Assembly: GCF_002742335.1 (NCBI RefSeq) | Contig: NZ_MDGR01000007.1 | Coordinates: forward strand, 624,501-688,500 | DNA from: Reichenbachiella sp. 5M10 | GTDB taxonomy: Bacteria; Bacteroidota; Bacteroidia; Cytophagales; Cyclobacteriaceae | Direction: 5' to 3' | DNA: 64,000 nucleotides | Part shown: positions 50,028 through 63,247 of the stretch, piece after piece | Layout of the letters: each line of letters starts with the position of its first letter | Numbering within the stretch: the first letter of the stretch is position 1 | Program-made: the position numbers and the translations under genes | The notes under the pieces: model-generated | The model's database searches: none | What the model was told of the DNA's origin: nothing | Seen by the model: the letters and a program-made list of their open reading frames with translations, nothing else

Positions 50028-50228
50028 ATGAGCAGTCAAACACGATCTACTTTAAAACTAATCGCCATCGTCATCGTCCTATTGATGGTACTCATGCAAC
50101 TCAATGTCGTCATTATCCCTTTCCTGGTTACGTACAAGTTTTGGATGATGGTAGGGGCATTTGTGATTCTACTGATTGCTTCTACCTGATTGCTTCTAGT
50201 TTTGGAGGAGGTAGTGTCGTTGGATGAA
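50028..50228 (+). CDS. small membrane protein, possibly frameshifted
   Basis: ATG 50028 opens a frame with two hydrophobic helices (LKLIAIVIVLLMVLMQLNVV and PFLVTYKFWMMVGAF). After Phe45 the frame turns polar and Cys-rich (CDSTDCFY) and overlaps the convergent hydrolase gene. Removing one T from the TTTT at 50160-50163 would instead continue hydrophobically (FVILLIAST) and stop at 50188-50190, just before the hydrolase stop. A one-base frameshift or sequencing error is therefore likely. Function unknown. Confidence 0.5.
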
Positions 50229-51185
50229 ATCTACCAGCCATAATTGTACGCTGTCCTTTTGACTTGGAGTAGCTTGACGAAAGGCGTGGCCTGTCCCCTC
50301 TAGTTCATGAAATTCATACGGGATACCGAGTGTGTCTAGTCTTTCTTTCAAGGCGATAGATTGAGGGAAGGGGACGATCTTGTCGATGTTGCCGTGAATG
50401 ATGAGCGTCGGTGGCGCTTGTGCCGTAATGTACTGCATCGGCGAGTAGGTTTGCATGAATTGGACCGCTTTGAGACTGTCACTCCTTGGATCAAAGCCAA
50501 ACAGCTGACGCGTAATGTCCAGCTCTGAACGAATAGCCGTAGGGGCTTTTTCGAGCAAGGACTGGAGACTGTCGAGCATTTGTGATTGGTAGAGAAGCTC
50601 CAGGTCTGAGGGGCCGTATACGTCGATTACGTAGTTGATGTGTGGTATTTCTAGTTCCAACGAAAAATCTTGTGGTTGCCCATAGGCAGCCATCATTGCG
50701 ATGTGTGCCCCAGCTGATTCTCCCATCAATCCCAAATTGTCCATGTCCAAACCATAGGTGTCTGCGTGCTCCTGTATCCATATCAGTGCCGAATAAGCGT
50801 CCAATACACAACCTGGAAAAGGTGAATGTGTACCATCAGCTAGTGTATAGTCAGGAGAGATGATTGTATAGCCTCGATTGCGCAGGGTGTTGATGGCTCC
50901 ATGGTAGCGGTTGACATTCAGTGCTTCTTTGCGTCCCATGACCCATGCTCCTCCATGAAAATATACCACGACAGGTGACTCGTCATGTACGACAGTTGTA
51001 GGCAAATAGATGTCCAATTTGTGCGTGTCACTATATTGGATATGGTGTAGTACTTCGCCCTGTAAGATGGGCGCCTCGTTGGCAATGAAAAAATAAGCCA
51101 GCCATACTATCACCAATCCAGATGTGGTCAACGCCAGGATGACTATGGCCTTGAGTCGCTTTTTTAGTTTGTCGCTGAGAGGCAT
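50196..51185 (-). CDS. alpha/beta hydrolase (esterase/lipase type)
   Basis: A 329-aa serine hydrolase with an N-terminal membrane anchor (about residues 12-34), oxyanion motif HGGAW (77-81), nucleophile GESAG (Ser157), and a C-terminal catalytic region with IIHGNIDKIVPF and GTGHAF (His). It resembles the hormone-sensitive lipase/BD-FAE group. It starts 12 bases after the flavin enzyme gene on the same strand, so it may act on the product of the adjacent cluster, for example by removing or transferring an acyl ester. That link is inference from position. Confidence 0.85.
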   Translation of the reverse strand: MPLSDKLKKRLKAIVILALTTSGLVIVWLAYFFIANEAPILQGEVLHHIQYSDTHKLDIYLPTTVVHDESPVVVYFHGGAWVMGRKEALNVNRYHGAINTLRNRGYTIISPDYTLADGTHSPFPGCVLDAYSALIWIQEHADTYGLDMDNLGLMGESAGAHIAMMAAYGQPQDFSLELEIPHINYVIDVYGPSDLELLYQSQMLDSLQSLLEKAPTAIRSELDITRQLFGFDPRSDSLKAVQFMQTYSPMQYITAQAPPTLIIHGNIDKIVPFPQSIALKERLDTLGIPYEFHELEGTGHAFRQATPSQKDSVQLWLVDFIQRHYLLQN

Positions 51186-51197
51186 GATTGATAGAGC

Positions 51198-52871
51198 TTA
51201 TGCATTGGAGAGGTTGTATAGCCACAGTGCTTCGATATCTGCTTTGATTGCAGGATCAGGCAATAGGCCTTTGTCTGGTGCCGTATCTATTTGATTTAGA
51301 TTCATGGTATAGGGATCGACAGGCATGTCTATCGGTGTCCCATGTACTGCATGGCTTATGTGTCTAAATAGCTCCGCTGCGAAGTTTTCGATGACTCGAA
51401 TATTGCTGGTTAATTTGTCGAGGAGTTCTGGAGTTTCATACTGTATTTCCAATCCATGGTGAAAATCACGCAAGCATGCCAAGTCAAAGGGGTCGACATA
51501 GCGATCGGCAATTGGATGAGTGTCGTGGGGCCTCCAAGCGATGAATAGGTCTTGGACTTTTTGATTGAGGATTCCTACTTGTCTACCGAGACTATCAGGG
51601 TTGGCAAACAGTGTTTTGAGTACGCGCAAGTTGGTGTAGCCCTTGTTGGTGAAAAGTAGGGTAAAAAAGGACCAATAGACTGCCCAATCCCAAAATATCT
51701 TGGCAACCATGATCTGGGTGTTGCCCATGAGCTGATACTTGTCCAGATAGGTTGGTATCCAATGTTCGAAGATGCCGAAGTGTGTTTTTTCATAGACATC
51801 CGCATGGATGAATATTGGCTCACCTGCTAAGTCACGTGTGATCAGGTCGGTGATCCAACTGTTGTTCATAGAAATGAAATCTGTACCAGGAGAGTATAGC
51901 GGGTCCAAGAATACGCCCGAGTCTCCAGTGACAGCCCATCGATCTTCGGAGTAGAGTTTGCCGCTGTGGTGGGAGTAGTGTTTGAGAAACAAGAAGTCAA
52001 GTACGTCGTCCTTGCGTGGGCCAATCTTTTCGAAGGCTTGGGGTTCATTTTTGCGTATCCATTCGAAGGCCTTGTCCTTGGTGTTGTATTCTGTAAAGTC
52101 GTGGAAGCGAGGGTCTGCTACGATCCCAACACTGGTGTTGCCTGAAGAGAGTGGGATGAACCATAGCCAGTAGCCAGTATCCATCAGGTGTACCGTACCG
52201 AGTCGTCTTAGTCCAGGTTTTAGCGTGGCGGACCATGCAGAGTCAGCGGCCCATTCCTGTACATCGATTTCGCCTTTGATGCGAAACCATGCGGCATTGA
52301 TGTTGTGATCGACAGGTTTTTGAAATCCCATCTGTCGTTTGAGGATAGCACCTCGGCCGGTACAGTCGACGGTCCATTTGGCTTGGACGGTATGTTCTTG
52401 CCCAGCGATCGTATAGGTGACCGTATGCAATGGGGTGCCAAATTCTACCGATTTGACACGGCACCCGAGTTGCAATTCATTGCCAGCTGCTTTTGAGCGT
52501 TGGATGAGTTCGTTTTCGAAACTGCCTCGGTCTAGTTGGTGACTGGGGACGGGGAGACGTTCTCTCGGTCCGAGCTCTACTCTTCTGGAGAGGTTGTCTT
52601 TGTGCTGGGGCGAAAAGAAAAATCGCAGGCCGTGCTTGGGGAGCTGTTTTGCGTCAAGATAGTCCTTGAGATTGAGCACTTCTCGCAGGTAGTAGGTACC
52701 TAGTTCGACGGTGGATTCACCGACTTTGTGTGCAGCATTGGGAGCTTCGTTTTTGCGCTGCTCGAGTATCAATATGGATATGTTGGGGTTCTCTTGTTTC
52801 AATTGCAAGGAAAGTGTCAAGCCAGCTAGGCCACCTCCCATGAGGATTACATCATATTGATCGTTAGTCAT
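51198..52871 (-). CDS. flavin-dependent halogenase-like oxidoreductase
   Basis: A 557-aa FAD enzyme. The N-terminal GGGLAGLTLS dinucleotide motif, the VGESTVELG block equivalent to the halogenase GEATVP, and GYWLWFIPLSSG, close to the W-x-W-x-I-P motif, place it in the tryptophan-halogenase-like superfamily. Some flexirubin clusters carry such enzymes for ring chlorination or oxidation. The first Trp of the motif is Tyr here, so halogenation is uncertain and a hydroxylase role is possible. It is divergent from the dialkylresorcinol genes. ATG 52871 is preferred to the TTG at 52889. Confidence 0.78.
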   Translation of the reverse strand: MTNDQYDVILMGGGLAGLTLSLQLKQENPNISILILEQRKNEAPNAAHKVGESTVELGTYYLREVLNLKDYLDAKQLPKHGLRFFFSPQHKDNLSRRVELGPRERLPVPSHQLDRGSFENELIQRSKAAGNELQLGCRVKSVEFGTPLHTVTYTIAGQEHTVQAKWTVDCTGRGAILKRQMGFQKPVDHNINAAWFRIKGEIDVQEWAADSAWSATLKPGLRRLGTVHLMDTGYWLWFIPLSSGNTSVGIVADPRFHDFTEYNTKDKAFEWIRKNEPQAFEKIGPRKDDVLDFLFLKHYSHHSGKLYSEDRWAVTGDSGVFLDPLYSPGTDFISMNNSWITDLITRDLAGEPIFIHADVYEKTHFGIFEHWIPTYLDKYQLMGNTQIMVAKIFWDWAVYWSFFTLLFTNKGYTNLRVLKTLFANPDSLGRQVGILNQKVQDLFIAWRPHDTHPIADRYVDPFDLACLRDFHHGLEIQYETPELLDKLTSNIRVIENFAAELFRHISHAVHGTPIDMPVDPYTMNLNQIDTAPDKGLLPDPAIKADIEALWLYNLSNA

Positions 52872-53053
52872 TGCGTTTTGTTTGTTCAAGTTTTGATTGT
52901 TCCTTGTTTGGACGGCTTAAATTTAATTTAACTATTAAGATCACCCACATTTAATTTTAGAATCTCAATTAAATATATTGCAAATATTTACCGAAGCTTA
53001 CCTATTATTAAGGTGCGGGATGAGGCGCACAAGGAGGAGCAAACAACAAACTG

Positions 53054-53527
53054 ATGAAATTTTTGATCATGTATTGGGCGATGTTTTTCGCCATGAATTT
53101 CGGCCCTGGATTTGATGCCAAACAGGTATACCAAGCATTGGAAGGAGATTCGATGGAGAAGATTCAGGCAGCTTTGAAGGTGCTAGGTCAGGAGCCCGAT
53201 ACGCCTAAAAATCGAGCCTACATCGGTGCACTGACAGCCAAGGAAGCAGGATTGCTCAAAGGTGTAGGGGACAAGGTGCGGGCGTTCAAGACAGGAGCTG
53301 AGATGCTCGAGACGGAGATAAAAAATGATCCAACACAGGTAGAGTTTAGGTTTTTGCGACTAGCGATACAAGAGGAGAGTCCAGCGATATTGGGCTACAA
53401 AGACAACATAGAAGAGGACAAGGCCATGATAGTCGATTATTATTCTAAGTTGCCTTCGACACTTCGCAAGCAAATCAAACATTATGCTGCCACGTCGGAG
53501 TATTTGACTGTGGATGACCTTCGCTGA
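53054..53527 (+). CDS. conserved hypothetical exported protein of the DAR cluster, 157 aa
   Basis: A short hydrophobic N-terminus (MKFLIMYWAMFFAMNFGPG) may be a signal or anchor. The rest is helical and TPR-like (YQALEGDSMEKIQAALKVLGQ, AYIGALTAKEAGLLKGVGDKVRAFKTGAEMLE, VEFRFLRLAIQEESP). I recall similar proteins beside flexirubin genes, with no known activity. It is the first gene of the plus-strand cluster, 19 bases before the DarA-like gene. Confidence 0.7.
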   Translation: MKFLIMYWAMFFAMNFGPGFDAKQVYQALEGDSMEKIQAALKVLGQEPDTPKNRAYIGALTAKEAGLLKGVGDKVRAFKTGAEMLETEIKNDPTQVEFRFLRLAIQEESPAILGYKDNIEEDKAMIVDYYSKLPSTLRKQIKHYAATSEYLTVDDLR

Positions 53528-53546
53528 TTAGAACCCAATTGATTTA

Positions 53547-54449
53547 ATGAAAAAAGTACTAGCCATCAACTATTCCCAAACCGGGCAACTGGATGAAATC
53601 ATGGAGCGATTTTTATCGCCGATGGTTGGCGTGGATGTAGATAGAGTCAAGATTCAGCTCAAAGTGCCATACGGTTTCCCCTGGGACAGTGATCGGTTTT
53701 TTGAAGTCATGCCTGAATCAGTCATGGAGGAGGTCGTCGAGTTGCAGGATTTTGACTTGACACACGATGCGTACGACTTGATCGTATTGGGGTATCAGCC
53801 ATGGTTTTTGTCCCCCTCCATACCGACTACTTCTTTGCTCAAGCATGAGAAATTCAAAGCAGTGATACAAGGGAAACCAGTAGTCACAGTCATCGGCGCG
53901 CGCAACATGTGGCTCAATGCACAGGACAGTATCCGGGCTTTGCTCTCCGCAGCAGGTGCGAGACAAGTAGCCAATATACCCTTGATTGATCGATCCAATA
54001 ACTTGACCAGTGCTGTTTCTATATTGCATTGGATGCTCAATGGCAAAAAGACCCGGCCGATGGGGATATTTCCCAAGCCGGGAGTGAGTGATGAGGATAT
54101 TTGGCAAGCGGATCGCTATGGCGCTTTCGCTAAAAAAGCGTTAGAAACAGGTGAGTATGACGATCTTCAGCGTGACGTATTGTCGCTCGATGAAATTCGA
54201 ATTCCTACCAATATTTTGTTCATAGAAATGAGAGCCAAAAAGCTCTTTCGGATATGGGCACGTATCATCAAGAAAAAAGGAACAACTGTAGCAAAGAGAA
54301 AGAGGTGGTTGGTAGGGTTCAAGTACTATTTGATTTTTGCACTATTTGTAGTGTCACCTATAGTACTTGTGATTTTTAATTTATTTTTAAGACCCTTTGA
54401 GCTCGGTTCCATTAAACGGAAAAAAGAGTATTATTGCGGGGTTAACTGA
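53547..54449 (+). CDS. darA: DarA-like dialkylresorcinol condensing/aromatising enzyme
   Basis: A 300-aa protein. The start MKKVLAINYSQTGQLDEI is a flavodoxin-like phosphate loop (Ser10, Thr12, Gly13), followed by the block MPESVMEEVVEL and LGYQPWFLSPSIPTTSLL. A hydrophobic C-terminal helix (about residues 257-283) probably anchors it to the membrane. This matches the proteins named DarA in Bacteroidota dialkylresorcinol and flexirubin clusters, thought to aromatise the ring formed by DarB. The adjacent DarB-like gene, nine bases downstream, supports the call. Confidence 0.75.
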   Translation: MKKVLAINYSQTGQLDEIMERFLSPMVGVDVDRVKIQLKVPYGFPWDSDRFFEVMPESVMEEVVELQDFDLTHDAYDLIVLGYQPWFLSPSIPTTSLLKHEKFKAVIQGKPVVTVIGARNMWLNAQDSIRALLSAAGARQVANIPLIDRSNNLTSAVSILHWMLNGKKTRPMGIFPKPGVSDEDIWQADRYGAFAKKALETGEYDDLQRDVLSLDEIRIPTNILFIEMRAKKLFRIWARIIKKKGTTVAKRKRWLVGFKYYLIFALFVVSPIVLVIFNLFLRPFELGSIKRKKEYYCGVN

Positions 54450-54457
54450 CAAGAAAG

Positions 54458-55600
54458 ATGCCGGAAGTTTATATTACGAGAACGTCAAGTTTTTTGCCCA
54501 ATGATCTGATCAGCAATGAAGAGATGGAAGATTATTTGGGCTATGTCAATGGCGCAAAATCAAGATCAAAAGCCATTGTATTGCGAAACAATAAGATCAA
54601 GGGGAGATACTATGCGATCACCAAGGATGGAGTAGCGACACATACGAATTCGGAGATGGTCTCTTTGGCCATCAAAAGGTTGTTTGAGAGAAATCCAGAA
54701 GAAATAAAGGAGGTAGACCTTCTCTCTTGTGGAACCTCTACACCCGATCAGATGATGCCTTCACACGCGGTGATGGTGCATGGGTGGCTACCAGAGATGG
54801 ATTCGATCGAAGTGGTGTCTCCGTCAGGTGTGTGCTGTTCGGGAATGCATGCACTCAAGTACGCCTACATGGCCATCAAAATAGGGGATAAGAAAAAAGC
54901 GATCACGACAGGGTCGGAGCGTTTGTCTCGTGTATTGAGGTCTGAGCAGTTTGAAGATGAAGTGAAGCATCTTGTGGAGCTGGAACAAAACCCCATTGTA
55001 GCATTCCAAAAGGATTTTCTACGTTGGATGCTCTCGGATGGTGCAGCTACGTTTCTACTAGAGGATCAACCTAGCGAGGATGGGACGAGCTTGCGCATCG
55101 AATGGATCGACGGGATATCCTATGCCAACCAGGAAGAAGCTTGTATGTATATGGCTTCTGAGAAAAAGGAGGACGGCACACTCAAGAGCTACATGGACTA
55201 TGCACCAGAGGATATCATGCACGAGTCTGTCTTGACGATCAAGCAGGATACTCGTTTGCTGGATAAGAATATTGTGGCTTTGGGATTCAATCATTTGATT
55301 AAAATACTGAAAGAAAAGAATCAAGATGTAAATGAGGTAGATTACTTTTTGCCTCACTTGTCGAGCTTCTTCTTCGAAGATAAAATAGCAGATATCTTGG
55401 AGTCTAATGGTATGGGGATCCCAAAGGAAAAGTGGTTCACCAACTTGGACAAGAAAGGGAACGTAGGGGCAGGGTCGATTTACCTCATGGTGGACGAACT
55501 GATCCAGAGTGGCAAACTTAAGAAAGGACAGAAGATACTCTTGGCAGTGCCTGAGAGTTCTCGATTTTCTTATGTGTTTTGCTATCTGACGGTCTGCTAA
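54458..55600 (+). CDS. darB: DarB-like ketosynthase III
   Basis: A 380-aa KAS III-type thiolase-fold enzyme. The nucleophile is in SGVCCSGMHALKYA (Cys126 or 127); His300 (LPHLSSFFFEDK) and Asn335 (GNVGAGS) complete the triad. DarB enzymes condense a beta-ketoacyl thioester with an enoyl or second acyl thioester and cyclise it to a cyclohexanedione that becomes a 2,5-dialkylresorcinol. The gene is tightly linked to the DarA-like gene and to the BtrH, transporter and ACP genes downstream. Confidence 0.8.
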   Translation: MPEVYITRTSSFLPNDLISNEEMEDYLGYVNGAKSRSKAIVLRNNKIKGRYYAITKDGVATHTNSEMVSLAIKRLFERNPEEIKEVDLLSCGTSTPDQMMPSHAVMVHGWLPEMDSIEVVSPSGVCCSGMHALKYAYMAIKIGDKKKAITTGSERLSRVLRSEQFEDEVKHLVELEQNPIVAFQKDFLRWMLSDGAATFLLEDQPSEDGTSLRIEWIDGISYANQEEACMYMASEKKEDGTLKSYMDYAPEDIMHESVLTIKQDTRLLDKNIVALGFNHLIKILKEKNQDVNEVDYFLPHLSSFFFEDKIADILESNGMGIPKEKWFTNLDKKGNVGAGSIYLMVDELIQSGKLKKGQKILLAVPESSRFSYVFCYLTVC

Positions 55601-55624
55601 ATGCATACTAAACTCACCTAAACG

Positions 55625-56026
55625 ATGAAAAAAGAAGATATCCCCCAAGATGAAGGCCCTCTCAAGAATGTGTTGAGAGAAGTGGTCTATGCCAAGGACG
55701 AAGAAGGAAAGTACACCTCCGCCCTGAGTCAGGGCTGGGACGTGAAGAAGGATGCACTTGACAATGCTTGGGATGATGTCAACGAAAAAATAGAGGAGGC
55801 CAAGCAGGCAGTCCTCAATGGGGAGAAAAGCCCAGTATATTACTACAAAGAAAAAACGCTGATGGATATGCCAACAATCACTGGGTACACTGGTTTTTGG
55901 GCTATCACAGTCAAGCGGCATTTCAAACCGAGTGTGTTCAATAAATTAAGTGAGGCCAAATTGGCAAAGTATGCCAAGGCTTTTGATGTCACTATCGAAG
56001 AATTAAAATCCCCTGACCTATCGTGA
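55625..56026 (+). CDS. DAR-cluster hypothetical protein, 133 aa
   Basis: A soluble, charged, mostly helical protein (LREVVYAKDEEGKYTSALSQGWDVKKDALDNAWDDVNEKIEEAKQAVLNG, then SPVYYYKEKTLMDMPTITGYTGFWAITVKRHFKPSVF and a C-terminal helix). I recognise no enzyme motif. The gene lies between the DarB-like and BtrH-like genes and overlaps the latter by four bases (GTGA), so it is probably an accessory subunit of the pathway. An HTH-like end (LAKYAKAFDVTIEELKSPD) resembles the last helices of Xre-type regulators. Confidence 0.65.
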   Translation: MKKEDIPQDEGPLKNVLREVVYAKDEEGKYTSALSQGWDVKKDALDNAWDDVNEKIEEAKQAVLNGEKSPVYYYKEKTLMDMPTITGYTGFWAITVKRHFKPSVFNKLSEAKLAKYAKAFDVTIEELKSPDLS

Positions 56027-57036
56027 TCAACGAATTCAATCATATCCAATCTGCACACTGTGAAAACGGAGTGACGACTAGCCTGTTCAAACACCATGGC
56101 ATTGATTTCATCAATGAACCTTTGGCATTTGGAATCGGCTCAGGTCTCTTCTATATCCATATCCCTTTCATGCAGGTGAATGGAGGACCAGCACTGTCGT
56201 TTCGTACCATGCCGGGAGCGATATTTCAGCGTACAGCCAAAGCACTCAACGTCAAGGTGAAGCGCAAAAAATTTAGATCCGAAGAAGCCGCGGATGATTA
56301 TTTGAAGAAATTGATCGATGAGGGCAAGCCTGTAGGATGTCAGGTGGGGGTGTTTCATTTGCCGTATTTTCCTAAGGAATACCGCTTTCACTTCAATGCG
56401 CACAATCTGATCATCTACGGTTATGAAAACGGTGAGTACTTGGTAAGTGATCCAGTCATGGAAGGGACCAATCGGTTGACTACTGAAGAACTGAATAAAG
56501 TGCGTTTTGCGAAAGGTGCTCTTGCCCCAAACGGGCACTTGTACTACCCTGAAGCAATAGGTACGGTGACGGACGAAATGCTGCGCAAAGCTGTCGCTAC
56601 AGGTATCAAACGAAATGTAAGAGATATGCTTCGGATTCCGGGCAATATTGCCGGGGTATCAGGGATCAAGTATACTGCTGGTAAAGTACGCAAGTGGAGA
56701 GACAAACTCGGCGTGCGCAAGGCAGGGCTGTACCTTGGGCAGATCGTGCGTATGCAGGAGGAGATCGGTACAGGAGGAGGTGGTTTTCGATTCATCTACG
56801 GAGCCTTCTTGGAGCAAGCGGCGGAGATCCTGCAAAACGATCAGCTGATGGGTATCTCTGAAGACATCACAGCAGCAGGAGACATGTGGAGAAATACTGC
56901 TGTGCAGATGGCGGGTATCTACAAAGGCCGCATCACCGAACAAAAGGATTTTGATCAGACTGCTGACATGATGATCGATATCTACCACAAAGAAAAGGAA
57001 ACCTTTGCCAAGCTAGGCAAGATCAAACTCAAGTAA
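56023..57036 (+). CDS. BtrH N-terminal domain acyltransferase-like protein
   Basis: A 337-aa protein with a BtrH-type, papain-like N-terminal domain: Cys13 (AHCENGVTTSLF), His127 (FNAHNLIIYGY) and Asp143 (VSDP) form a likely catalytic triad. The C-terminal half fits the DUF4872 helper domain. BtrH transfers an acyl group from an acyl carrier protein to butirosin; by analogy this enzyme may transfer an acyl chain between the cluster ACP and the resorcinol or another acceptor. The start is GTG 56023, overlapping the preceding gene; the stop overlaps the ABC ATPase ATG by one base. Confidence 0.8.
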   Translation: MINEFNHIQSAHCENGVTTSLFKHHGIDFINEPLAFGIGSGLFYIHIPFMQVNGGPALSFRTMPGAIFQRTAKALNVKVKRKKFRSEEAADDYLKKLIDEGKPVGCQVGVFHLPYFPKEYRFHFNAHNLIIYGYENGEYLVSDPVMEGTNRLTTEELNKVRFAKGALAPNGHLYYPEAIGTVTDEMLRKAVATGIKRNVRDMLRIPGNIAGVSGIKYTAGKVRKWRDKLGVRKAGLYLGQIVRMQEEIGTGGGGFRFIYGAFLEQAAEILQNDQLMGISEDITAAGDMWRNTAVQMAGIYKGRITEQKDFDQTADMMIDIYHKEKETFAKLGKIKLK

Positions 57037-57788
57037 TGCCCGCGATAGCACACATCAATATCTCCGAGATGAGCAAGCGATATCCTCGTGCAATGGAGGA
57101 GAGTCTCAAGCGTGTATCTATTCATATCGATGCAGGAATGAAGTACGGTTTGCTTGGGCCCAATGGTGCGGGTAAAACGACTTTGATTTCGATCATGTGT
57201 GGGTTTTTGGAGCCGACAAGTGGTGAGGTGATCTACCGTACTCAGGATGGAGGTGCTGTACTTGGCAAAGAACTAAAGACTATGATTGGGTTTGTGCCAC
57301 AGGAATATGCGATGTATGGGGAACTCACTCCATTACAAAATTTAGAGTATTTCGGTGCGCTCTATGGAATGTCATCGGAGCATATTCGTCGGCGGAGTAG
57401 AGAACTGCTAGAGGTACTCGGGTTGTCAGAAGTCGCCAAGAAACCTACCCGGGATTTTTCGGGAGGGATGAAGCGTCGAGTCAATTTGGCCATTGGAATC
57501 ATTCATGATCCTGCTATCTTGTTTTTGGATGAGCCTACAGTAGGGGTAGATGTGCAGAGCAAACATGCGATCATTCGCTTTTTGAATGAATTGAACAACC
57601 AAGGAACAACGATCATCTATACCTCGCATCACATGAATGAGGCACAGGAGTTTTGTGACGAGCTGGTGCTGATAGATCATGGGAGTATCGTTGCTCAAGG
57701 AAAAACCACAGAGTTGCTAGACAAGCACAAGGCAGAGGATTTGCATTCCATGTTTATCGAATTGACGGGAGAGGAGTATCGCAACTAA
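57036..57788 (+). CDS. ABC-2 type transporter ATP-binding protein
   Basis: A 250-aa ABC ATPase with Walker A GPNGAGKT (residues 41-48), Q-loop FVPQE, signature FSGGM (141-145), Walker B ILFLDEPT (161-168) and H-loop TSHHMNEA. Its position one base from the permease gene and inside the biosynthetic run suggests export of the lipid product to the outer membrane. It is coupled to the BtrH-like gene by a one-base overlap. Confidence 0.9.
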   Translation: MPAIAHINISEMSKRYPRAMEESLKRVSIHIDAGMKYGLLGPNGAGKTTLISIMCGFLEPTSGEVIYRTQDGGAVLGKELKTMIGFVPQEYAMYGELTPLQNLEYFGALYGMSSEHIRRRSRELLEVLGLSEVAKKPTRDFSGGMKRRVNLAIGIIHDPAILFLDEPTVGVDVQSKHAIIRFLNELNNQGTTIIYTSHHMNEAQEFCDELVLIDHGSIVAQGKTTELLDKHKAEDLHSMFIELTGEEYRN

Positions 57789-57789
57789 T

Positions 57790-59064
57790 ATGTTCAAATT
57801 TTTAATTTCTATAAAAAAGGAACTGATCATTTTGCTCAGTGACAAACTCGGCTTGACGGTCATGTTTGTGATGCCGATGTTGCTCGTATTTATCATTACG
57901 ATCATTCAGGATAGTGCTTACAAGATTGTCAACGAAAACAAGGTGAGTATCCTCGTTTCCAATCAGGATGAAGGAGAGCAAGGGGGAGAATTGGTCCAGC
58001 TGTTGGTCGAATCGGGTTTCTTCATGGTCGAGCAAAACGATGCGTTAGAGCAAGACGCCTTGAAGGCAAGTCTAATGAGCGATGACAAATTGACGGCTCT
58101 ATATATCCCGAAGGCATTTAGCGAAAGCATGAAGGGCAAAGCAAATCATGTCAGCAGTACAATGATGTCCCAGCTGGGGGTCATGGAGTATGACCGTGTC
58201 GTACAGGTGACTGCTCCCAAGATCGCATTGTATATCGACCCGATCCTACAAGAGACATTTTCTGCATCTATTTCTCGGATGTTGTCATCCTATCTCAAGC
58301 TCATCGAAAACAAATTGATGATAGAGTCGGTCTATGTATTGATGGAACAGGATTTTGATGAGGAAGCGCTGATGAGTGAGATGCAGGCCAATCCCATCGA
58401 GATTGAGCGACATACCGCTTCGCTCTCAGACAAAGAAATATTGCCGAATTCGACTCAGCACAATGTTCCAGCATGGACGCTATTCGCCATGTTTTTCATG
58501 GTAGTATCATTAGGGACTAATGTAGTCAAAGAACGTATCAATGGTAGTTTTATGCGTCTAAAAACCATGCCGACTAGTTTTTTGATGGTACTGATGGGCA
58601 AGATGCTGGTTTACGTAGGGGTCGCGATGCTGCAGATTGCAATGATCTTTGGGGTGAGCATGTTGGTCTTCCCGTGGTTGGATTTGCCGCAGCTGGTCAT
58701 GCCCGACGCGATGGGGGCGTTTTTTGTAGTTGTGCTCTTATCGAGCATGGCAGCTGTGAGTTTCTCATTGATGATCGGTACGTTGGCACAGACGCTGGAG
58801 CAGTGTATCGGGATGGGAGCGATATCGGTGATCATCTTTGGTGCGATCGGAGGGATCTGGGTGCCGACCTTCGTGATGCCTGGTTATATGCAGGCCCTTA
58901 CGGCGATTTCACCCCTGCATTGGTGCTTAGAGGGCTTCTACATTTTATTTTTAAAAGGAGGGAGTTGGAAAGAACTATTTCCTATTATTGTATACATATC
59001 TGTATTCGTACTGGTGTGTCAAGGCATCATGTTGAGCAGATTACGAACGGAGAAATTACTCTAA
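57790..59064 (+). CDS. ABC-2 type transporter permease
   Basis: A 424-aa permease with one N-terminal helix, a large extracytoplasmic domain (about residues 45-225) and five to six C-terminal helices (SLGTNVVKERINGSFMRLKTMPTSFLMVLMGKMLVYVG..., GAIGGIWVPTFVMPGYMQALTAISPLHWCLEGFY). The SPLHWxLeGF motif is typical of ABC-2 (YhhJ/DrrB-like) permeases. It is the membrane part of the cluster exporter. Confidence 0.88.
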   Translation: MFKFLISIKKELIILLSDKLGLTVMFVMPMLLVFIITIIQDSAYKIVNENKVSILVSNQDEGEQGGELVQLLVESGFFMVEQNDALEQDALKASLMSDDKLTALYIPKAFSESMKGKANHVSSTMMSQLGVMEYDRVVQVTAPKIALYIDPILQETFSASISRMLSSYLKLIENKLMIESVYVLMEQDFDEEALMSEMQANPIEIERHTASLSDKEILPNSTQHNVPAWTLFAMFFMVVSLGTNVVKERINGSFMRLKTMPTSFLMVLMGKMLVYVGVAMLQIAMIFGVSMLVFPWLDLPQLVMPDAMGAFFVVVLLSSMAAVSFSLMIGTLAQTLEQCIGMGAISVIIFGAIGGIWVPTFVMPGYMQALTAISPLHWCLEGFYILFLKGGSWKELFPIIVYISVFVLVCQGIMLSRLRTEKLL

Positions 59065-59074
59065 ATTATTAGTC

Positions 59075-59341
59075 ATGGATAAGGATACACTCAAAATAGA
59101 GTTGAAAGAAAAGATAATTCAGTACCTCAATTTGATGGACATGAAGCCTGAGGATATCAAGGATGATGAACCACTTTTTGGTCCTGAATTAGGGTTGGAT
59201 TCAATTGACTCTATCGAGATGGTCGTGTTGCTCGAAAGAGAATATGGTATCAAAATCAATAACCCGACAGAGGGCAGAAAGATATTGGTGGATGTCAACG
59301 TGATGGCCGATTATATCTTAGCCAACTCGACCAAAATATGA
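59075..59341 (+). CDS. acyl carrier protein (DarC-like)
   Basis: An 88-aa carrier protein. The phosphopantetheine site is Ser43 in GLDSIDSIEMVVLLEREYGI. The preceding acidic LMDMKPEDIKDDEPLFGPEL is typical of dedicated pathway ACPs rather than the fatty-acid ACP. It presumably carries the growing chain for the KS pair and for DarB. Its TGA overlaps the ATG of the ketosynthase gene. Confidence 0.9.
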   Translation: MDKDTLKIELKEKIIQYLNLMDMKPEDIKDDEPLFGPELGLDSIDSIEMVVLLEREYGIKINNPTEGRKILVDVNVMADYILANSTKI

Positions 59342-60537
59342 CCAAAGTGTATGTGACCGGTATGGGGGTGGTTTCGGCGATTGGCAACAATGTCGCGGAA
59401 AATCGCCAAAGCTTGATCGAGGGCAAGACGGGTCTCTGCAAAAACGCACAATATTTTTCTTCAAAGTACACGGAGAGCCACCCTTTCGGGGAAGTCAGAC
59501 TCTCGGATGATGCGCTGCGTAGCAGTCTCACCACTCACGATACTCATGGATTGACACGCACTGACTTGCTGGCTTTTAGGGCATTTGAGGAGGCGATTCA
59601 TGACGCTGGCTTGACTGCCAAAGAGTGGTCCAACCCTAAGACTGGTTTGATTTCGGGGAGTACAGTGGGAGGCATGGTGCTTACTGATCAAGTCTTCGAA
59701 GATGGCAGTTTGCGTGCACAATCCAAGGAGTTTTTGGAGTCATACGACTACTGCTCGCATACACTGCGACTGATAGAGTCCTATCAGATACAGGGAGTGA
59801 CAGATACCATCAATACGGCCTGTTCTTCGTCGGCCAATGCCATCATGCTCGGAGCTCGATTGATCCGGTCGGGACGAGCTCAACGGATGATTGTCGGCGG
59901 TACGGATAGTTTGGCCAAGTTTACAGTCAACGGGTTCAATTCGCTACAGATACTGTCTGATGAATTGTGTCAGCCTTTTGATGAAAATCGAAAAGGTCTG
60001 AACCTAGGGGAAGGAGCAGCCTACCTCGTACTCGAATCGGCAGAGCTCGCAGCTGGCAAGAGGATCTATGGTGAAGTAGCCGGCTATGGCAATAGCAATG
60101 ATGCCTATCATGCCTCATCCTTGTCCGAAGATGCGGTAGGCGTATTGGCCGCCATGGAGGCTGCACTCGTGGAAGCAGGCTTAGCTCCTGATCAGATAGA
60201 CTATATCAATGCTCATGGTACAGCTACGGGCAACAATGACCTGACTGAGATTACAGGGTTTGACAAGTTGTTTGCACAGCTACCACCTTTCAATTCGACC
60301 AAGTGCTATACAGGGCATACTTTGGCAGCCGCTGGAGGAATAGAAGCCGTGTACAGTTTGCTTAGTATCAGTCATGGGGAGTTGTACCCTGGGTTGCACT
60401 GTCAGGAGCCGATCGCGCCTGTGGGGCAGTTGCCGATTGCAAACTACCAGTCTCAACAAGAAATCAATGCTGTTCTTTCCAATTCCTTTGGATTTGGCGG
60501 CAACTGCACCTCTGTGGTGTTTACCAAAGTGAAATAA
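59338..60537 (+). CDS. beta-ketoacyl-ACP synthase (KAS I/II type)
   Basis: A 399-aa ketosynthase with an intact triad: Cys162 (NTACSSSANAI), His293 (NAHGTATGNND) and His327 (CYTGHTLAAAGG). It performs decarboxylative chain elongation on the cluster ACP. It is directly followed by a catalytically dead homologue, so the two probably form a KS-CLF heterodimer, as in aryl polyene and type II polyketide systems. Confidence 0.93.
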   Translation: MTKVYVTGMGVVSAIGNNVAENRQSLIEGKTGLCKNAQYFSSKYTESHPFGEVRLSDDALRSSLTTHDTHGLTRTDLLAFRAFEEAIHDAGLTAKEWSNPKTGLISGSTVGGMVLTDQVFEDGSLRAQSKEFLESYDYCSHTLRLIESYQIQGVTDTINTACSSSANAIMLGARLIRSGRAQRMIVGGTDSLAKFTVNGFNSLQILSDELCQPFDENRKGLNLGEGAAYLVLESAELAAGKRIYGEVAGYGNSNDAYHASSLSEDAVGVLAAMEAALVEAGLAPDQIDYINAHGTATGNNDLTEITGFDKLFAQLPPFNSTKCYTGHTLAAAGGIEAVYSLLSISHGELYPGLHCQEPIAPVGQLPIANYQSQQEINAVLSNSFGFGGNCTSVVFTKVK

Positions 60538-60538
60538 A

Positions 60539-61576
60539 ATGTACATCAAAGCTGTCACCGCGATATCCCCACAATTGACTACTGATACAGGCCTTTTCGA
60601 AGGCCGGGTACGTGTTTTGGAGGGGAACAAATATTTTGCTGCCGAACCGAGTTATGTAGAGATGATCCCCAAGGCATTGCTACGACGAATGAACAAGGCT
60701 GTACGGATGGGAGTAGGGGCGGGTCTGATGACTCTCAAGGACCGAATGAGCCAGGATGGGGTGATCCTCGGTACGGCCAATGGAGGGATTGACGATAGTT
60801 TTAAGTTTCTCCAGCAGATACTCCAGTACGACGAAGGGACCTTGACGCCTACCAACTTCGTGCAGAGCACCCCCAATGCCGTGGCAGGTAGTCTTGCGAT
60901 GATGTCCAAAAACACTGGGTACAACAATACCCATGTGCATTATGGGTTGGCTTTTGAGATGGCATTGCTGGATGCTATGATGCTGTTCGAGGAGGGAAAG
61001 GCTCAATCGCTACTCGTAGGTGCACTTGAGGAGATCTCTGATCACAACTACAACATGGATCAGCAAGCTGGTTGGTTCAAGATGAGCGAAAGCTCATCTG
61101 CTGACTTATTGGATGGCGATACAGAGGGCACTGTCAAAGGAGAAGGAAGTACAATGTTGGTCGTGGACATGGATCCAAAAGGTGCTTTGGCGCAAATTAT
61201 GGCGGTGGAGCAGTATAGTTTTGTGGATTCAGTGCAGCTGCAAGGAAGTATTCAATCATTGTTGGACCAGGAGGGGGTTGAAGCGTCTGAAGTAGCGCTG
61301 ATGTTGGGACTCAATGGGGACAATCGCCATGACGGATGGTATCGTGAGGTTCAATCGGCGATGTTTCCAAGTCAGACCACCTATAGTTTCAAAAATCTCG
61401 TGGGCGAGTATCCCACCGCGACTGCTTTTGCCGTTTGGCTCGCTGTACAGTTGTTGAATCGCAGTGAAGTCCCCGCGGAGATGGTGTATGCGGGACAGCA
61501 CACACCTCCCAAGTACATTCTCATTTACAATCACTACAAGGCCAAGCAGCACAGCTTGATTTTAATGCGAGCTTGA
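60539..61576 (+). CDS. ketosynthase-like chain-length-factor homologue without catalytic residues
   Basis: A 345-aa protein with the thiolase-fold N-terminal half of KAS enzymes (LGTANGGIDDSFKFLQQIL, TPTNFVQSTPNAVAGSLAM). The segment NTHVHYGLAFEMALLDA sits where the nucleophile loop should be and has no Cys; no NAHGT follows, and GEYPTATAFAVWLA replaces GHTLAAAG. All three catalytic residues are therefore lost. That, the reduced length and the position one base after the active KS favour a chain-length-factor role. It is the last gene of the cluster. Confidence 0.78.
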   Translation: MYIKAVTAISPQLTTDTGLFEGRVRVLEGNKYFAAEPSYVEMIPKALLRRMNKAVRMGVGAGLMTLKDRMSQDGVILGTANGGIDDSFKFLQQILQYDEGTLTPTNFVQSTPNAVAGSLAMMSKNTGYNNTHVHYGLAFEMALLDAMMLFEEGKAQSLLVGALEEISDHNYNMDQQAGWFKMSESSSADLLDGDTEGTVKGEGSTMLVVDMDPKGALAQIMAVEQYSFVDSVQLQGSIQSLLDQEGVEASEVALMLGLNGDNRHDGWYREVQSAMFPSQTTYSFKNLVGEYPTATAFAVWLAVQLLNRSEVPAEMVYAGQHTPPKYILIYNHYKAKQHSLILMRA

Positions 61577-62803: not shown

Positions 62804-63247
62804 ATGGCTTTTTTTACAAGCGAATATGAGTGTAAGTTGGATGCTAAGGGTAGGTTGGCCTTACCTGCAAAGATTAAGGCAAACCTACCCGAGGTGTCTG
62901 GCAATGAGCTCGTTGTGATGAAGGGTTTTGACCCGAACTTGGTGGTGTACACCATGCTTGAGTTTAAAAAAATTCAGAGCAAGTTCGCTGCATTGAGTGA
63001 TTTTGATGCCGCCCAGAGAAGATTGAAAAGAAACTTTTTCCGCAGTGTTGCTCCCGTAGAATTAGACAGTGCCGGACGTATATTGATTCCGAAAGCATGG
63101 ATAGATCATGCCAAACTGGAGAAGAACGTTACGATCATTGGAATGGGTAGCACAGTGGAGATCTGGAATCCCGACCTGTATGACGATTATCTGATTGCCG
63201 ACAGTGAGGAGTTTTCGGATTTGGCTAAAAAATTCCTTGATGAATGA
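62804..63247 (+). CDS. mraZ: transcriptional regulator MraZ
   Basis: A 147-aa protein with two AbrB-like SpoVT/MraZ domains: YECKLDAKGRLALPAKIK near the N-terminus and PVELDSAGRILIPKAWIDHAKL in the second half. MraZ is the first gene of the division and cell-wall cluster and represses it by binding repeated boxes upstream; such boxes are seen at 62721-62760. Its TGA stop overlaps the rsmH ATG (ATGA). Confidence 0.95.
   Translation: MAFFTSEYECKLDAKGRLALPAKIKANLPEVSGNELVVMKGFDPNLVVYTMLEFKKIQSKFAALSDFDAAQRRLKRNFFRSVAPVELDSAGRILIPKAWIDHAKLEKNVTIIGMGSTVEIWNPDLYDDYLIADSEEFSDLAKKFLDE

Follow-up and report, generated by a model that had tools for sequence, protein, structure and literature searches.

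We analyzed a stretch of 64,000 nucleotides of Reichenbachiella sp. 5M10 (the window; C7:624501-688500, where C7 is contig NZ_MDGR01000007.1 of a 4.64-Mb genome) and, within it, a tight plus-strand operon at 53054-61576 that carries DarA, DarB and other genes of the dialkylresorcinol (DAR) pathway. Flexirubin, yellow-orange in colour, is a familiar pigment of this bacterial group. Our results make it very probable that this operon serves to produce and handle the 2,5-dialkylresorcinol part of a predicted flexirubin-type pigment, the polyene half of which is encoded at a second locus on the same contig. A first-pass annotation of the window had considered a non-pigment dialkylresorcinol lipid to be the probable product, and had left open that polyene genes might lie at a second locus. 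Ammonia-lyase and ketoreductase genes of the aryl polyene kind, with dehydratase-like and acyltransferase genes, were found together at about 3.136-3.160 Mb. The inference of a product that lacks a polyene is not supported, because the same genome has a FlxA/FlxB locus 2.47 Mb from DarB.

A second locus with polyene genes

When the genome was searched for the ammonia-lyase family, two sites were found, C7:1.42 Mb and C7:3.147 Mb, of which only the latter reaches the FlxA cut-off. This tyrosine ammonia-lyase (C7:3146938-3148428; NF053541, 756 bits against a cut-off of 700) is the single FlxA over cut-off in the genome. Its locus also encodes the ketoreductase FlxB (391 bits against an NCBIfam cut-off of 340), three ketosynthases of 404, 369 and 392 amino acids (aa) and a 311-aa ketosynthase-like protein that is 29% identical to the ketosynthase-like protein of the window. 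Further products are acyl carrier proteins (ACPs), an AcpS-like protein, an AMP ligase, LolA, a polysaccharide deacetylase, a glycosyltransferase, a FabA-like protein, a thioesterase-like hotdog protein, a methyltransferase, a 196-aa protein without a family, an exporter in which MMPL, acyltransferase and methyltransferase parts are fused, and a Trp_halogenase-type flavoprotein shorter than the one in the window. Pfam matches were obtained for the FabA-like protein, the acyltransferase in the MMPL fusion, the AMP-binding protein and LolA. Proteins without a family match were named by reading their sequence, among them a 142-aa dehydratase-like and a 288-aa acyltransferase-like protein that gave no NCBIfam match at E ≤ 1e-20. 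The earlier statement that reductive enzymes are missing is correct for the operon and incorrect for the genome, where FlxB, the FabA-like protein and the second, dehydratase-like protein are found at this locus.

The kinds of genes at the second locus match those published for flxA-flxY of Chitinophaga pinensis (Cpin_1853-1877), which lie apart from darB-darA (Cpin_6850-6851) (PMC3992019; the layout is also given in PMC6767994). The two organisms resemble each other in having two loci, one with similar polyene genes and the other with DarA and DarB; this is a comparison by gene kinds, since the type strain lies outside the loci we compared, in which two metagenome-assembled genomes (L062 and L107) bear the label C. 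pinensis. Flavobacterium johnsoniae also combines DarA/DarB with polyene genes, but as a single 37-kb flexirubin cluster (PMC3992019, PMC6767994) and not as the two loci of 5M10. In a survey of 39 genomes, dialkylresorcinol clusters were reported in 16, within or adjacent to a polyene cluster in nine of these (PMC3949708). The arcuflavin system of Azoarcus sp. BH72, described in the same paper, likewise joins a dialkylresorcinol to an aryl polyene with polyene loci that are not physically linked, but its polyene starter is a hydroxybenzoate (XanB2 type), whereas that of 5M10 would be tyrosine.

For the genus itself, antiSMASH regions have been tabulated for six Reichenbachiella strains, without analysis of their genes (PMC10752948). 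For the strains reported as flexirubin-positive, ABR2-5T, BKB1-1T and R. agariperforans, this table lists both an arylpolyene region and, apart from it, one containing resorcinol genes, whereas R. faecimaris has arylpolyene alone and is flexirubin-negative, and WSW4-B4T and R. versicolor have neither region and are also negative. These are other species than 5M10, with the same pair of separate loci. Matched by coordinates only, DarB and FlxA of genome G253 map within the regions listed for BKB1-1T, FlxA of G384 within those of ABR2-5T and FlxA of G302 within those of R. faecimaris. DarB and FlxA of G329 map within the regions of R. agariperforans, and here the match also has DarB DNA behind it, which is identical in G329 (L117) and the R. 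agariperforans locus L035. In G384, the position of DarB is lower than the end given for the resorcinol region, whose start is seemingly misprinted. The two-locus flexirubin layout is therefore an ordinary one of an already documented kind, published for C. pinensis (PMC3992019) and visible in the Reichenbachiella table (PMC10752948), and neither a little-described system, as had been proposed, nor a new lipid system.

Co-occurrence of DarB and FlxA was determined in two genome samples, one order-wide (n=192) and one of the family (n=390), which together hold 38 distinct DarB genomes. In the order sample, 17 genomes had DarB over cut-off and 24 had FlxA. None of the 17 lacked FlxA, which was over cut-off in 15 of them and a partial match below it in two (G139 and G167). 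The family sample gave DarB over cut-off in 22 genomes, FlxA in 51 and both in 21. When the samples were combined, FlxA was present in 37 of the 38 DarB genomes, including the two partial matches. The association is strong in either sample (Fisher p = 2e-14 for the order and 8e-20 for the family), by statistics that ignore relatedness. Among the 37 distinct genomes having both genes, DarB and FlxA lie 4.7-5.9 kb apart in six, on one contig at a distance of 49 kb to 4.3 Mb in ten, and on separate contigs in 21. Within the window's genus, DarB occurs in four and FlxA in five of eight genomes.

The dialkylresorcinol operon and its conservation

The genes of the operon and the two that adjoin it on the opposite strand are as follows (window coordinates; scores in bits against the NCBIfam cut-off).

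50196-51185, minus strand: alpha/beta hydrolase (BD-FAE/Abhydrolase_3, Pfam match)
51198-52889, minus strand: CmlS/PltA-like flavoprotein, a possible halogenase and DAR-linked accessory in some lineages (WxWxIP, KxGLRF)
53054-53527, plus strand: unnamed conserved 157-aa protein at the operon head (hydrophobic N-terminus, all-helical model)
53547-54449, plus strand: DarA, predicted dialkylresorcinol condensing enzyme (flavodoxin-like domain and C-terminal hydrophobic helices in the model; position before DarB)
54458-55600, plus strand: DarB, ketosynthase III (NF053539, 621 against 550)
55625-56026, plus strand: DarG, flexirubin type (NF053545, 184 against 170)
56023-57036, plus strand: DarH, BtrH-related acyltransferase (NF053550, 456 against 300; BtrH_N and DUF4872)
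57036-57788, plus strand: ATP-binding cassette (ABC) transporter ATPase (PF00005)
57790-59064, plus strand: ABC-2 permease (PF12698)
59075-59341, plus strand: acyl carrier protein (PF00550; LDSID motif)
59338-60537, plus strand: beta-ketoacyl-ACP synthase, Cys-His-His (PF00109/PF02801; motifs TACSS, HGTAT and GHT kept)
60539-61576, plus strand: ketosynthase-like protein, chain-length-factor type (PF13723, Ketoacyl-synt_2; catalytic Cys absent in alignment to the neighbouring ketosynthase)

From DarA to the ketosynthase-like protein, the distance between neighbouring genes ranges from -4 to +24 bases. All the genes that the first-pass annotation had placed in one coupled run, together with the flavoprotein and the hydrolase, were recovered in their places by NCBIfam and Pfam scores (above gathering scores for the ABC ATPase, the ABC-2 permease and the ACP), DarA being recognized by position and fold. 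The annotation was also right in reading these as DAR genes of the flexirubin kind, and DarG is over the cut-off of a flexirubin model. The gene list was right as far as it went, and overlooked the conserved gene at the operon head.

To follow the operon in relatives, 100 DAR loci were compared, taken from 20 of the 38 DarB genomes and from 80 named loci; the latter are the best 80 of at least 576 relatives, and the sample leans to close ones. Removal of four duplicates left 96 distinct loci, and each count below takes in only loci with enough flank to judge the gene in question. DarG was in place in 88 of 89 loci, DarH in 84 of 85, the ABC ATPase in 82 of 83 and the ACP in 67 of 69. For the ketosynthase, counted where its strand was the same, the figure was 50 of 65 loci, and for the ketosynthase-like protein it was 35 of 65. 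Of 74 loci, 73 have an ABC permease downstream of DarB, and the exporter that had been singled out as a distinguishing feature is a standard part of the operon, because a single gene order from DarA to the permease is kept in 70 of 71 loci. The ABC pair is also present in relatives with FlxA about 5 kb away. In R. agariperforans, the closest named relative by DarB among the matches listed (90% identity), the gene order (L035) is that of the window. In L069 (Taishania), DarA and DarB alone were seen.

Neither NCBIfam nor Pfam had a match to DarA at E ≤ 0.01. A DarA gene precedes DarB on the same strand, within 4 kb, in 86 of 87 distinct loci having at least 3 kb upstream, and the sole exception, L107, has DarA in the opposite orientation. 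Its homologues are 39-74% identical to the window protein (alignment of 26). The predicted model, with a mean predicted local distance difference test (pLDDT) score of 92.3, matches flavodoxin/WrbA-like folds in the PDB; receptor structures among the top rows are presumably flavodoxin-fusion constructs, as one of their titles says. Identification of the protein as the predicted DarA, to which no curated model responded, is supported by position, homologues, the published pairing and the predicted fold.

Among 83 distinct DAR loci with 4 kb or more of upstream sequence, 70 have the 157-aa gene of the operon head 5' of DarB. Its product belongs to no Pfam or NCBIfam family at E ≤ 0.01. The AlphaFold model is all-helical and confident (mean pLDDT 93.8), and we propose no function because it had no PDB match at E ≤ 0.001. 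We regard this head gene without a family as a mildly new element of the operon.

DarB over the NF053539 cut-off is present in a single copy. The possibility of another DarB in 5M10 was considered and rejected, as a genome search with the DarB model gave otherwise only matches of 22.6-38.8 bits against 550; DarA was not used for such a search. Scoring under the cut-off, DarB-like frames of 578-658 aa recur in relatives, with six matches in the order sample and 28 in the family sample. At L034:7406-9289 (minus strand), a DarB-like ketosynthase forms part of a 627-aa protein with a C-terminal haem-oxygenase-like region (Haem_oxygenas_2 just under cut-off), next to a DUF6999 protein and a fatty acid hydroxylase. 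In 5M10 itself, a chalcone-synthase-like type III polyketide synthase gene at 4.556 Mb (L003, C7:4554945-4558154) is accompanied by a methyltransferase and a divergent UbiA-like gene, all read from open reading frames; it was rejected as a part of the pathway, with no flexirubin gene in the 3.2 kb viewed.

The alpha/beta hydrolase has homologues of 55-57% identity adjoining the DAR operon in three other Reichenbachiella (R. agariperforans as both L035 and L117), and outside the genus only 26-30% matches at three DAR loci. It is a neighbour kept in Reichenbachiella, and a role in the pathway is doubtful. On the other side, mraZ (62804-63247) lies just 3' of the operon in the window. It was dropped as a conserved downstream neighbour, since in G253 and G384 a distance of 2.2-2.7 Mb separates it from DarB and in G329 the two are on different contigs. 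Because mraZ is far from DarB in these other genomes of the genus, there may be an edge of a rearrangement or an assembly join between 61576 and 62804.

A halogenase-like flavoprotein beside the operon

The flavoprotein carries the sequences GGGLAG, WLWFIP and KHGLRF, corresponding in turn to GxGxxG, to WxWxIP and to KxGxxF, the lysine region, which we take to be motifs of flavin-dependent halogenases of the CmlS/PltA type. Among 11 homologues at distinct DAR loci, WxWxIP is kept in all and the lysine motif in ten. Its PDB matches include PltA and CmlS at distant likeness, the best being 3nix, called Flavoprotein/dehydrogenase, and against the CmlS family model it scored 61 bits, short of the 900 of the curated halogenase cut-off. 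The 11 homologues (48-81% identity) belong to several genera and come from the 96 distinct DAR loci, 83 of which had at least 3.5 kb upstream, and in six of the 11 the gene lies between DarA and DarB; two more DAR loci have a shorter relative (25-28%). In Reichenbachiella, the flavoprotein is present in all four DarB genomes and in none of the four without DarB. Elsewhere in the family, three of four DarB genomes searched carry it, G371 being the exception. The flavoprotein is tied to DAR loci within Reichenbachiella and occurs at a minority of loci overall, a mildly new observation. We also noted a halogenase-like gene between DarA and DarB in G359 (L120:14257-15657, minus strand), which lies in two pieces in different stretches and has a truncated frame in L120.

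A FAD enzyme beside DarA/DarB-like genes on a Streptomyces plasmid was rejected as a relative (best E 0.078, not significant). The best plasmid homologues, from Janthinobacterium (38%) and Gloeothece (35%), had no annotated dialkylresorcinol genes within their 17.5-kb stretches, according to a plasmid gene table that is incomplete. Among the papers retrieved on halogenases and chlorination in flexirubin or dialkylresorcinol biosynthesis, no title or abstract beginning describes such a pairing in Bacteroidota. Known flexirubin chlorination sits on the polyene ring, and the main text of the C. pinensis paper nowhere uses the word stem 'halogen' (both PMC3992019), in contrast to the flavoprotein beside the operon in the window; a halogenase gene is listed in the Azoarcus polyene cluster (PMC3949708). 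We put forward, tentatively and as a rather unlikely reading, that these long CmlS-like flavoenzymes are dedicated partners of the DAR operon in several Bacteroidota lineages, where they might halogenate the resorcinol ring.

Proposed pathway and alternative explanations

By analogy with published work on DarA and DarB, DarB and DarA would condense two fatty-acid-derived acyl intermediates to form the ring, with acyl chains carried or supplied by the ACP and the ketosynthase. At the second locus, as in C. pinensis, tyrosine would be converted to a 4-hydroxyphenyl polyene acid by FlxA, the AMP ligase and the ketosynthase, ketoreductase and dehydratase set. An acyltransferase, most plausibly DarH, would then esterify the polyene acid with the dialkylresorcinol; DarH is our candidate for this step, chosen from its BtrH-like family. 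Transport of the product in the direction of the outer membrane may involve the ABC pair together with the exporter and LolA of the second locus.

A free, non-pigment dialkylresorcinol lipid, acting as a membrane lipid, antioxidant or signal, with its own ABC export and independent of any polyene, would agree with the dialkylresorcinol obtained from C. pinensis darB and darA in a heterologous host (PMC3992019) and with the signalling role proposed in a Dyadobacter paper (PMC9606717). It is nevertheless highly improbable, given the presence of FlxA in 37 of the 38 DarB genomes (two of them partial), the same ABC pair where FlxA is about 5 kb off, and a DarG that exceeds the cut-off of a flexirubin-specific model. 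We also consider it very unlikely that the two loci yield separate products that are never joined, an aryl polyene lipid and a dialkylresorcinol. The 2.47 Mb between them would fit such an arrangement, as would the fact that polyene loci are common in genomes lacking DarB over cut-off (30 in the family sample), but only one of 38 genomes has DarB without FlxA, both genes lie within 6 kb in six relatives, and Reichenbachiella flexirubin tests were positive solely where both regions were tabulated (PMC10752948).

Several points weigh against a joint flexirubin-type product. In one DarB genome, G522, which is 81% complete, a search at E ≤ 1e-150 gave no match to FlxA. FlxA over cut-off without DarB over cut-off occurs in nine genomes of the order sample and 30 of the family sample, and therefore the polyene locus can stand alone. 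The authors of the C. pinensis study proposed FlxW, and not DarH, as the ester-forming enzyme (PMC3992019). The evidence for pigment consists of reported potassium hydroxide (KOH) tests on congeners, and a KOH test is no proof of structure. The flexirubin results in columns 4-6 of the Reichenbachiella table are from older literature and are assigned to strains by table numbering; ABR2-5T and BKB1-1T are named positive in the text itself (PMC10752948).

Taken together, these results remove a candidate new lipid system, whose missing polyene genes lie at another locus and whose exporter belongs to the standard operon. If the flavoenzymes do act on the resorcinol ring, halogenation in some flexirubins would concern the resorcinol half, rather than the polyene ring only. 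Separation of the two halves is common: in 10 of the 16 sampled genomes with both genes on one contig, 5M10 included, they are separated by 49 kb to 4.3 Mb, and reading such genomes cluster by cluster can turn one pathway into two apparent products.

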